Shown piece after piece: positions 9,016-12,823 of a stretch of DNA of 64,000 bases. The notes under the pieces were generated by a model. It was not told where the DNA came from. It searched no databases and saw only the letters and a list, made by a program, of their open reading frames with translations. The stretch is taken from positions 1,883,501 through 1,947,500 of the forward strand of contig NC_007512.1 of the NCBI RefSeq assembly GCF_000012485.1, read 5' to 3'. The translations under genes were made by a program, and so were the position numbers. The stretch is from Pelodictyon luteolum DSM 273 (lineage in GTDB: Bacteria; Bacteroidota; Chlorobiia; Chlorobiales; Chlorobiaceae). The stretch's first letter is position 1. Every line of letters starts with the position of its first letter.

Positions 9016-9963
9016 ATGCAGACCTGCATCACCGATTCAGCCGAGGAAGCAGCCAGAATCCTCAACGCCGGAAAGATCGTCGCGTTCCCCACTGAAACCG
9101 TTTACGGGCTCGGAGCCGGCATCGATTTTCCCGAAGCGGTTGAAGGGTTGTTCCGGGCCAAAGGCCGCCCCTCCGACAACCCGCTCATCGTCCACGTCAG
9201 CAGTGTCGAACAGGTGGAGATGGCAGCAGCAAGGGTCACAACGGACGCACGGCGCCTGATGGAGCGCTTCTTCCCCGGCCCGCTCACCATCGTCTTCCCT
9301 AAAAGCCCGAGGGTGCCGCATTCGGTCACGGCAGGGCTCGAGACCGTCGGAATCCGCTGCCCCCGGCACCCCGTAGCCCGAGAGTTCCTCTCCCGCTGCT
9401 GCTGCCCTGTCGCAGCGCCTTCAGCAAACCGCTCGGGCCGCCCCAGCGCAACCACATGGCAGGCCGTCCAGGAAGATCTCGACGGCCGCATCGACGCCAT
9501 CCTCAAGGGGGAAGCGAGCAGGATCGGCCTTGAATCGACAATCGTAGACTGCACCGGCCCGCACCCCGTCATGCTGAGAGCCGGAGCCGTCAGTCTGGAA
9601 GAACTGCAGAGCATTGTGCCCTCAACCACCGCCGCCCGCCCCTTAAGGGAGGGGGAAACCCCGAAAAGCCCTGGACTGAAATACCCCCACTACGCGCCGG
9701 AAGCCACAATCATCCCGATCGAAAAGGAGGAAACGCCCTCTCCAGAAGGACGCGCTGCTTACATCGGTACCGCGCCCGCGCCCAAAGGCATGGCATTCGT
9801 CGAGCAGTGCCCTGACCTTGAAGCATACGCCCGGAGCCTCTTCCACTTCTTCAGGGAGTGCGACCGCCGGGCAATCAGCACCATCTACTGCGAACTCCCC
9901 CCGACGGCCGGCATCGGCCGCGCCCTTCTTGACCGCATAAACCGTGCCGCCGGCCGCCCGTGA
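9016..9963 (+). CDS. tsaC: Threonylcarbamoyl-AMP synthase (Sua5 type)
   Basis: A 315-residue Sua5-type enzyme that makes threonylcarbamoyl-AMP from Thr, bicarbonate and ATP for the tRNA t6A modification. The YrdC domain (~1-205) has AFPTETVYGLGA, KGRPSDNPLIVHV and APSANRSGRPS. A Sua5 C-terminal domain follows the linker KSPGLKYPHYAPEA, which distinguishes this long form from E. coli TsaC. MtaB, which methylthiolates t6A, is encoded at 51651-52967. It is convergent with the HhH-barrel gene, and the two stop codons abut at 9963/9964 with no room for a terminator. Confidence 0.94.
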   Translation: MQTCITDSAEEAARILNAGKIVAFPTETVYGLGAGIDFPEAVEGLFRAKGRPSDNPLIVHVSSVEQVEMAAARVTTDARRLMERFFPGPLTIVFPKSPRVPHSVTAGLETVGIRCPRHPVAREFLSRCCCPVAAPSANRSGRPSATTWQAVQEDLDGRIDAILKGEASRIGLESTIVDCTGPHPVMLRAGAVSLEELQSIVPSTTAARPLREGETPKSPGLKYPHYAPEATIIPIEKEETPSPEGRAAYIGTAPAPKGMAFVEQCPDLEAYARSLFHFFRECDRRAISTIYCELPPTAGIGRALLDRINRAAGRP

Positions 9964-12042
9964 TCAGAACGTCCACAGGCACCCGACATGCATCGAAGCC
10001 GGAGAGTCCGTGCTGCGCATGTCGGAACCGCTGCTGTAGACCTCCCTGTCGGTATACGTCGTAACCTCATATCGTGCTGCCAGCTTCAGGTTCTCGGCAG
10101 CTTTCCATGATGCAAGCAAAAACATCGACGTTCCCCGTCCATTGTATGCACCGAGGTCGAACTGCATCGGAAGGCCGTCCTCATATGCATAGATCTGCGC
10201 GTCGGAGCTGTCGGTATTGAACAGGGTTCCGCGCCACTTCAGGCTGAGCCTTCCGGTGGCATAGTTCAGCTGTTCATAGACCATCCATCCGTCATATGAG
10301 GGGCTCCCGGAGTAGTAGTCCCTGGTCACCCGCTTGAGTTCGCCGCGGGTACGGGTACTGAACCCTTTCAGCACTTTCAGGTCGCAGTCAAGCCTGATGC
10401 GATCAGTCTCGGAGATTACCTCCGTATAGACTTTGCTCTCATCATCGCAGTCCACAAAAACCCCGTCCACAAGCGGGCACTGCGTCACGGCCTCGCCCTT
10501 CCGCTTGTGCTGCAGCTGCATCGTCCACGACACTGAACGCGAAGCCTTCCACACCGTAAACAAACGCATATCCTGCCCCTCCGAAGGGTAGGGGTAGGAG
10601 GAGGAGCTGAGAAGCGGAAAACGGAACCAATCGAAGTACGCACCAACCTGGACCCGGCGGCTCAGCTTCGCATCGATGCCGACATAGTACCCCTCTTCGT
10701 TCGACGCATTTGAACCCCGTTCGGCAAACGCGCCGGCGAATGGCGAATAATAGCGGTCCCCGTAGTTGCGCACTGCCGCTACCGCATTCACCCCGTGCAG
10801 CGGCTCGTATGATACGCCGCCGATCCATGAGCCCGCTTCGGGCTTTTGGGAAAAGGCCGCTTCCATGAACATCCCGAGCTTTCCGGACGTGAGCGCCGCC
10901 TCAAAGCCCACGAGATCGCCTGAAGAGGCTCCGTCAGGAGAAAAGCCGGAGTCGACAAGCGACTCCAGCGGCTCGGAATACCGGTAGTGCACCATGCTTG
11001 CACCAATCCGCCCGTTCAGTCCGGGAGCGCTGAAGTTCCATAAAAGGTTGGCGCCAGAAGCCTCCTCCCGCACCCCGTCCTGACGGGAAATCTCCAGTTC
11101 CGTGCGGTGGTAGCCCGACTCGTCAAAACTGGTGATGAGCTCAAGGTCACTGACCCTTCCATCCACGCGGTTGGAGGCGGTGAACGCCGTAACCTCGAAA
11201 TCACCGGGCCGGAGGGTTGCCGCCGCACCCTGCAGGAACCCGTACTCGGCGCTCGAACTATAGGGGGACAGTCGCCGGGAATGCAGCCGCACGCTTCCGG
11301 CAGGATCGGAGCCTTTTGAAAAATACCGGTTCTGGCCCATCAGAAGTCCTTCACCGAAATTGAGGGTGTAGTTGCCGACAACGGCGCTTTTGACGATGCC
11401 GATGTCGTATGCATTGAGGCTGAAGGAGGTGAAGTCGTCCAGATCCGGCTCCCCCACGTCCTTTTCCTGAACCACGCTAGCCTTCAGGTGCGGGATGGCA
11501 AGCTGAAAGCGATTGTACAGTTTATAATTGTCGCCCTCATAAGCACCGGTCGTGATGCCCTGCCGCTCGGGCATTTCAGTATAGTAGCGACTGTAGAAGG
11601 ATCCTTCGATCTGGTCGCGGAGAGCCTCCCGACGCAGCATGAGGTCCTTTTCAAAGACAATGTAGGGGATCGTCCGCGCGGCCTTCTCCCTGCCGACGAG
11701 GGCAGCGAGGTCCGCTTCGTTGCGGATGGGAGTCCTGCGGCGAGCGGAAAGAATAGCCTGGGCGTCGGTGTTAGTCAGCCAGGGCAGCTGGAGCAGGTCT
11801 TCGGCAGTGGCTTCATTCAACGGGATCTTCTGCCGCTTGAGATCGGCAAGGTCTTCAAGGAGGGGTTCAAGGTTGCCCTCTGGTTCGAGGGCACCGAAGA
11901 CGGACTCGAGCTCGCCCGAATCAGCGGCTTCGGCGGCTTCGGCTGCCTCAGGCGGCCGGGCCAGAAGCACGATGAAAAGATAGCCGGCCATCACCCGCAT
12001 GGCGTGACCGTTTTCCCTGTTGTGAAAAAGTCTCATTGCCAT
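9964..12042 (-). CDS. Helix-hairpin-helix protein with predicted outer-membrane beta-barrel
   Basis: About 692 residues, of a kind known in Chlorobi/Bacteroidetes but without an assigned function. From ATG 12042 there is a basic N-terminus and a hydrophobic signal segment (MAGYLFIVLLA). A short acidic Ala-rich spacer follows, then two ComEA-like helix-hairpin-helix repeats (IPLNEATAEDLLQLPWLT, TDAQAILSARRRT, NEADLAALVG). The remaining ~540 residues are aromatic-rich alternating strands with Gly/Asn turns, ending in Trp-Thr-Phe; the terminal Phe is typical of BAM-inserted barrels. It is the last gene of the hisH-hisA-scpB-rluB run. Upstream in-frame starts would run into rluB. Confidence 0.8.
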   Translation of the reverse strand: MAMRLFHNRENGHAMRVMAGYLFIVLLARPPEAAEAAEAADSGELESVFGALEPEGNLEPLLEDLADLKRQKIPLNEATAEDLLQLPWLTNTDAQAILSARRRTPIRNEADLAALVGREKAARTIPYIVFEKDLMLRREALRDQIEGSFYSRYYTEMPERQGITTGAYEGDNYKLYNRFQLAIPHLKASVVQEKDVGEPDLDDFTSFSLNAYDIGIVKSAVVGNYTLNFGEGLLMGQNRYFSKGSDPAGSVRLHSRRLSPYSSSAEYGFLQGAAATLRPGDFEVTAFTASNRVDGRVSDLELITSFDESGYHRTELEISRQDGVREEASGANLLWNFSAPGLNGRIGASMVHYRYSEPLESLVDSGFSPDGASSGDLVGFEAALTSGKLGMFMEAAFSQKPEAGSWIGGVSYEPLHGVNAVAAVRNYGDRYYSPFAGAFAERGSNASNEEGYYVGIDAKLSRRVQVGAYFDWFRFPLLSSSSYPYPSEGQDMRLFTVWKASRSVSWTMQLQHKRKGEAVTQCPLVDGVFVDCDDESKVYTEVISETDRIRLDCDLKVLKGFSTRTRGELKRVTRDYYSGSPSYDGWMVYEQLNYATGRLSLKWRGTLFNTDSSDAQIYAYEDGLPMQFDLGAYNGRGTSMFLLASWKAAENLKLAARYEVTTYTDREVYSSGSDMRSTDSPASMHVGCLWTF

Positions 12043-12070: not shown

Positions 12071-12823
12071 TCAGGGGCTTCCGGCCAGATGGCGAAGCTG
12101 CTGCACCTCTGTGCGCGTAAGATGGCGCCACTGGCCGCGGCGGAGGTCACCGACCGTGAGACCTGCATAGGTCGGCCGATCAAGCCGCGTTACTTCAAAG
12201 CCGAGTGTCTTGAACATCCTGCGAACCTGATGGTTCTTTCCTTCATGTATGCTGATCCAGACCTGTGAGCCGTCTCCCATGATCTTGGCTTGGCACGGAC
12301 TGACCTTCTCCCCGGTATCGCTCAGGCGCATGCCGCCCGTGAGGAGAGGAAGAGACGCCTGCGGGAACGGTGCGTCCAATACTGCAATGTACTCTTTTTT
12401 CACATTTGAAGAAGGGTGCATGAGTTTATTTGCCAGCATCCCGTCATTGGTGAGGAGAAGCACGCCGGTGGTCTTGCGGTCGAGACGGCCGACCGGATAG
12501 ACCCGCTCGTTGACGTCGATGAAATCGAGCACCATCTCACGGTTCCGCTCATCACTGCTGGTGGTGATGACGTTGCGGGGCTTGTTGAAAAGGATGTATA
12601 TCTTCCTGCCCTCAGGCTGGGCGAATTTCGATCCGTCGACAATCACCTCGTCCTTTCCCGGCACCACCTTCACGCCGGGCTCACTGGCAAGGACGCCGTT
12701 GATGGTAACCCGGCCCTCGAGAACCATCTGGTCTGCGGCCCTGCGCGAGGCAATGCCGCACATGGCCAGATACCGGTTGATCCTTACCGCCTCATTCTGT
12801 TTCTTCTCCACGTTGCTCCCCAT
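12071..12823 (-). CDS. rluB: rRNA pseudouridine synthase (RsuA/RluB family)
   Basis: A 250-residue pseudouridine synthase. An N-terminal S4 RNA-binding domain (RINRYLAMCGIASRRAADQM) is followed by the catalytic domain with the Asp-containing motif PVGRLDRKTTGVLLLTNDG. The C-terminal motif is NHQVRRMFKTLGFEVTRL. RluB-type enzymes modify 23S rRNA, while RsuA modifies 16S, and the exact site is not decidable here. The ATG lies 32 bp inside the end of scpB, an arrangement that is common for the scpB-rluB pair in many bacteria. Confidence 0.92.
   Translation of the reverse strand: MGSNVEKKQNEAVRINRYLAMCGIASRRAADQMVLEGRVTINGVLASEPGVKVVPGKDEVIVDGSKFAQPEGRKIYILFNKPRNVITTSSDERNREMVLDFIDVNERVYPVGRLDRKTTGVLLLTNDGMLANKLMHPSSNVKKEYIAVLDAPFPQASLPLLTGGMRLSDTGEKVSPCQAKIMGDGSQVWISIHEGKNHQVRRMFKTLGFEVTRLDRPTYAGLTVGDLRRGQWRHLTRTEVQQLRHLAGSP

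Follow-up and report, generated by a model that had tools for sequence, protein, structure and literature searches.

The window analysed here, the whole stretch of 64,000 nucleotides at positions 1883501-1947500 of the closed 2.36 Mb genome of Pelodictyon luteolum DSM 273, carries on its minus strand a complete gene whose product joins a signal-peptide-like leader and a small helix-hairpin-helix (HhH) domain to a large predicted outer-membrane beta-barrel (Table 1). The first-pass annotation had given the extent of this gene correctly. Its start is probably ATG 12000 rather than ATG 12042, because the former yields the better signal peptide and the orthologues start close to it; hydrophobic leaders at the equivalent place in the orthologues bear out the signal peptide read at first pass. 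The stop codons of the barrel gene (end 9964) and the convergent Sua5-like gene (end 9963) abut with no spacer (9961-9966). Scans for promoters and terminators around the barrel gene gave about as many matches as expected by chance. The closest named record (89-91% identical) is a Pelodictyon luteolum MAG.

Table 1. Features of the barrel gene and its neighbours, in window coordinates.
Feature	Position	Strand	Basis or remark
Complete ORF, 692 aa + stop	9964..12042	minus	ATG 12042; probable true start ATG 12000
Signal-peptide-like leader MRVMAGYLFIVLLARPPEAAEA	11935..12000	minus	Sequence reading; hydrophobic leaders at equivalent place in orthologues
Helical segment preceding the HhH domain	11836..11916	minus	AlphaFold2 helices, model residues 23-38, 47-58
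Single degenerate (HhH)2-fold domain	11653..11835	minus	Pfam HHH_3, family profile, AlphaFold2 helices
Hairpin 1 turn, Trp-Leu-Thr replacing Gly-hydrophobic-Gly	11773..11781	minus	
Asp codon aligned with the DNA-contacting lysine of ComEA (V. cholerae K63)	11764..11766	minus	
Hairpin 2 turn, Leu-Val-Gly	11692..11700	minus	Only last Gly retained
Outer-membrane beta-barrel, 547 residues, predicted	9967..11607	minus	AlphaFold2, Foldseek, invariant C-terminal Phe
rluB-like pseudouridine synthase gene, directly upstream of barrel gene	12071..12823	minus	
Sua5/TsaC-like gene, convergent to barrel gene	9016..9963	plus	

AlphaFold2, run on an alignment of 58 family members (A3), returned a model with pLDDT 90.8 and pTM 0.87. 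The leader is followed in this model by helices, the HhH helices, a short low-confidence linker and 24-26 long strands, which run from model residue 134 to 679 and end in a Phe that is invariant in 34 of 34 orthologues. The protein thus combines a signal peptide, amphipathic strands closing a predicted barrel and a C-terminal aromatic residue, as an outer-membrane barrel does, and the barrel of about 540 residues ending in Phe that had been read from the sequence is recovered by structure prediction at 547 residues. Foldseek returned for the barrel only generic large barrels (best PDB matches at TM about 0.3-0.4), with no known translocon among the PDB matches, and a BFVD search again gave generic barrels only. 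Searches of PDB and family collections with the single sequence of the window protein gave almost no matches, the family becoming visible only with profiles; neither Pfam nor NCBIfam has a family for the barrel gene, and NCBIfam gave nothing relevant. We found neither a description nor an assigned function of this barrel in the literature searched, which agrees with the earlier remark that no function is assigned to the architecture. A Bacteroides HhH gene that may belong to the barrel family, BT3167, sits in an iron-response table.

The part of the protein preceding the barrel has the (HhH)2 fold, as indicated by the AlphaFold2 helices (68-71, 79-91, 97-104 and 106-115, pLDDT about 85-94) and by profile matches to 8dss, 8dfk and 2duy. 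Pfam HHH_3 scores the window protein weakly (19.9 bits, E 8e-4, against a cut-off of 27) and its relatives clearly (52-55 bits), and the A3 profile matches ComEA structures significantly, over the HhH part only, with E-values of 8.2e-15 (8dss) and next 1.5e-12. ComEA thus shares the fold, but it carries Gly-hydrophobic-Gly turns and a key lysine, both of which are lost in the Chlorobiaceae protein, where the HhH part is fused to a barrel. The ComEA-like HhH repeats described at first pass are therefore ComEA-like in fold but are not repeats: we observe a single (HhH)2 domain with divergent turns. In hairpin 1, Leu-Pro-Trp-Leu-Thr replaces the Leu-Pro-Gly-hydrophobic-Gly of ComEA, and hairpin 2, with Leu-Val-Gly, is two residues shorter than in ComEA. 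Across the family, the Gly-hydrophobic-Gly turn occurs in hairpin 1 of none of the 58 members and in hairpin 2 of 11, all outside Chlorobiales (L104 and L126, for example, have GIG), and the position of the ComEA lysine is occupied by Asp in 33 and by Glu in 1 of 34 Chlorobiaceae. Mutation of this lysine (K63 in V. cholerae, K164 in B. subtilis) cripples DNA binding and transformation, and the K63E exchange in V. cholerae abolishes transformation (PMC3879209, PMC9747964). The window protein has neither Gly-hydrophobic-Gly turn, which is the observation that the first-pass annotation had itself named as refuting, so that its sequence does not support DNA binding by the module; the other part of that reading, a barrel at the surface whose HhH-fold module faces the periplasm, is supported.

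The host genome also encodes a ComEA-like protein (L001:1486-2025:-, 179 aa, with a membrane anchor), which has GVG in both hairpins (C1 about 284742-284918). It carries Met at the key-lysine position and lacks the hairpin 1 lysine pair required in V. cholerae and B. subtilis; hence, that lysine is no absolute feature of ComEA. Moreover, members of other HhH families, XPF for example, tolerate Gly-hydrophobic-Asn turns. The net charge of the HhH domain averages about +2 in Chlorobiaceae (range -3 to +7) and about 0 in the other family members, and is +1 in the host's ComEA-like domain. HhH-fold domains have roles apart from DNA as well: one family member (L112) exceeds the score required for a type II secretion protein K domain. 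Another homologue (L120:5070-6812:-, 581 aa) has no HhH domain at all and keeps the barrel, encoded directly behind a gene for the PorV-like partner described below.

The barrel gene is present, normally in one copy, in 85 of 86 Chlorobiaceae genomes, including all 65 of good quality, and the family extends to about 230 of 296 Bacteroidota genomes (A3 profile, E<1e-20). Within Chlorobiaceae its surroundings are stable: each of the 49 loci tested has rluB as the immediate upstream neighbour in the same orientation, and a Sua5-like gene converges on the barrel gene in 39 of 47. When the window gene is compared with those of three other Chlorobium, dN lies below dS in both parts of the protein, at 0.27-0.35 for the HhH part and 0.15-0.20 for the barrel, while dS is close to 1 or higher. 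Mean pairwise identities are 0.46 (HhH) and 0.54 (barrel) within the family and 0.33 for both parts phylum-wide. From these rates and identities, the HhH part appears constrained, but more loosely than the barrel within the family. With an intact reading frame, universal presence in Chlorobiaceae and dN well below dS, the feature is, as judged from sequence, far above chance.

Outside Chlorobiales, the barrel gene has a different neighbour. In 31 of 33 such loci, a gene for a protein of about 285 residues lies directly upstream on the same strand, with a distance from its stop to the barrel start of -14 to +76 nt in 28 of 32 measured cases, and a divergent DUF4835 gene comes next in 26 loci. 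The model of one partner (L149, pLDDT 90.6) shows 14 strands, flanked by hatch helices at the N-terminus and an HhH domain at the C-terminus. Its best Foldseek matches are to PorV in the T9SS translocon (8gl6_F 3.8e-13, 6h3i_F 2.9e-12) and then to FadL, and a sequence search of the PDB with the partner profile gave PorV as its one significant match (7.8e-9). Barrel, hatch and homology together place the partner in the PorV/FadL family; the Pfam PorV search of the host genome matched none of the controls and is therefore uninformative. A search of the 296 Bacteroidota genomes with the partner profile (A2, E<=1e-20) found it in 150. In a cross-tabulation of the barrel (A3) and partner (A2) tables, in which related genomes are not independent, 139 of the 164 genomes that carry the barrel outside Chlorobiaceae also have the partner, against none of 66 barrel-less genomes, and four families (f6, f8, f9 and f33) each contain genomes with both genes and genomes with neither. 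In a group of order-level relatives of Chlorobiaceae (L149-L154, e.g. L149:4830-5945:-) and in L163, the partner gene is unlinked to the barrel gene, and the protein carries at its C-terminus an HhH domain of its own, whose turns include GMS/GIS and GIT/GVN. An HhH module on both proteins supports a functional link between barrel and partner that goes beyond the operon. Among the 66 Chlorobiaceae in this set, the partner is found in 11, all of genus g2 and none with the gene adjacent to the barrel gene, and the profile recognises no partner in the host genome or in its whole sampled genus.

We propose, with about an even chance of being right, that the window protein is the large subunit of an undescribed, Bacteroidota-wide outer-membrane system of two barrels, forming a translocon-like pore. 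The proposal builds on architecture, distribution, adjacency, co-occurrence, the predicted fold of the partner and the lost DNA-contact residues, whereas contact between the two barrels, an open pore, and the direction and substrate of transport are what we infer. By analogy with SprA-PorV (PMC10202324) and with BamA-BamG, in which BamG is a FadL homologue (PMC12578637), the pair would form a pore through which bulky cargo is translocated or assembled. The large barrel would be the passage for the bulky substrate, the PorV/FadL-type protein would stand laterally beside it, as PorV does to SprA and BamG to BamA, and the HhH-fold domain would act as a docking or gating module beneath the pore rather than as a DNA clamp. 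In Chlorobium, where the PorV-like gene is undetectable, the large barrel may work alone or with a diverged substitute. As the host genome and its whole sampled genus are without a recognisable partner, the pairing is, on sequence grounds, not obligatory, and the partner that is missing or unrecognisable in Chlorobium is the main weakness of the two-barrel proposal. The lack of any known translocon among the structural matches of the large barrel also counts against it, and its sequence gives no pointer to a substrate. Should the pair prove to be a complex, it would join SprA-PorV and BamA-BamG as a third Bacteroidota example in which a large barrel works with a subunit of FadL/PorV type, and would indicate a general design for the passage of large cargo across the Bacteroidota outer membrane. 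Although it lacks a Pfam or NCBIfam entry, the barrel gene belongs to the core of green sulfur bacteria and occurs in most of the Bacteroidota sampled.

The likeness to the two precedents lies in design. SprA (or Sov) is a large barrel that works with PorV, and the large barrel studied here has its genetic link to a PorV-like barrel of 14 strands; SprA, however, has 36 strands, over 2000 residues and the SprA_N domain, whereas the window protein has about 24-26 strands, 680 residues and no Pfam SprA match. Of 19 genomes searched, 15 have SprA_N; the four Chlorobiaceae tested, the host among them, all have the barrel and no SprA_N. With no SprA, a role as T9SS component is rejected for Chlorobium. 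The Bacteroidota BAM complex again pairs a large barrel with a FadL-type subunit (PMC12578637), but the window protein has no Omp85 or POTRA domains detected and no sequence relation to BAM. The MtrB-type porin of the Mtr complex (6r2q_B), the fourth Foldseek match at TM about 0.35, is a large barrel of comparable strand number. Such a conduit has an adjacent multiheme cytochrome gene, whereas no decaheme-cytochrome gene was seen beside the barrel gene, the neighbours being rluB and the Sua5-like gene in Chlorobiaceae and the PorV-like and DUF4835 genes elsewhere.

The barrel could instead be an outer-membrane channel for DNA uptake, handing DNA to ComEA and ComEC with the HhH domain assisting at the periplasmic mouth, a minority reading that we regard as unlikely. 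The HhH domain is homologous to that of ComEA and recurs on the partner barrel in relatives, the host genome encodes ComEC along with the ComEA-like protein that has both GVG turns, and natural transformation is known in Chlorobaculum tepidum (Frigaard and Bryant 2001, as cited in PMC12285230). The lost hairpin 1 turn in all 58 members and the Asp at the key lysine in 33 of 34 Chlorobiaceae weigh against it, the more so as an acidic exchange there abolishes transformation in V. cholerae, yet the host's own ComEA-like protein is also without that lysine. The homologue that has lost its HhH domain while barrel and partner are kept is a further point against. The DNA uptake suggested at first pass might thus go through the barrel, but not by way of a ComEA-like clamp. 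Co-occurrence with comEC, which the first-pass annotation had suggested as a check, is uninformative by itself, since comEC is found in 288 of 296 Bacteroidota genomes. That ComEC is kept in 59 of the 66 barrel-less genomes speaks against uptake. All seven genomes of family f36 lack both ComEC and the barrel, as uptake would predict, but they are one lineage and probably represent one event. On this reading, Flavobacteriaceae-like lineages, which are barrel-less, would use another receptor, and indeed the outer-membrane step in Riemerella uses proteins that are mainly of Flavobacteriaceae (PMC8459023), which is consistent with replacement; these other proteins fit either replacement or irrelevance of the barrel. 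One of the Riemerella proteins needed for natural transformation, RA0C_RS02645, is also an HhH-bearing envelope protein of Bacteroidota, but its HhH lies at residues 236-301, it is predicted periplasmic, and no barrel is reported for it (PMC8459023). Outside Riemerella, the literature searched assigns no outer-membrane DNA-uptake channel in Bacteroidota. The barrel is a clear candidate for this step, one that can be tested in a transformable green sulfur bacterium.

FadL family members are channels for hydrophobic compounds, and we give a small probability to the barrel being an ordinary solute channel or receptor, which the HhH-fold domain would simply plug or cover on the periplasmic side, while the FadL-type neighbour would serve hydrophobic solutes. 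The top of the Foldseek ranking, where TonB-dependent receptors, AlgE and large barrels of MtrB-like type stand, agrees with this. A nutrient receptor would be expected to be patchy, with substrate genes as neighbours, whereas this barrel is universal in Chlorobiaceae and fixed behind rluB, and Pfam detected no plug or TonB-receptor family in the window protein. Improbable, in our judgement, is a factor for outer-membrane assembly or maintenance, associated with BAM or LPS transport and not itself a translocon. That BamG, a FadL homologue, is a stable subunit of BamA in Bacteroidota (PMC12578637) lends it some weight, as do the core status of the barrel gene in Chlorobiaceae and the divergent neighbour in many lineages, DUF4835, for which a periplasmic, T9SS-associated role is given as hypothetical (PMC9722745). 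The barrel is absent, however, from several families with complete genomes and matches no solved BAM subunit in sequence.

Some further features of these genomes were observed. Among the secretin-domain ORFs of the host genome (L165, L166 and L167), there are two near-duplicate tad-type genes, in tad-like contexts as judged by eye (CpaB-like and TadE-like neighbours), and one ORF that fuses TPR repeats to a secretin domain; none is an obvious PilQ. The seven f36 genomes (G217, G247, G253, G277, G286, G296 and G303) include five in which the family profile matches no HhH at all, and SprA is present in the two tested, so that the competence set seems to have been lost from f36, a lineage that has T9SS. 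In seven loci (L095, L098, L099, L111, L113, L123 and L125), a HEAT-repeat protein fused to a cyclophilin-type isomerase is encoded beside DUF4835 and the two barrel genes, and is possibly a periplasmic chaperone of the same two-barrel system.
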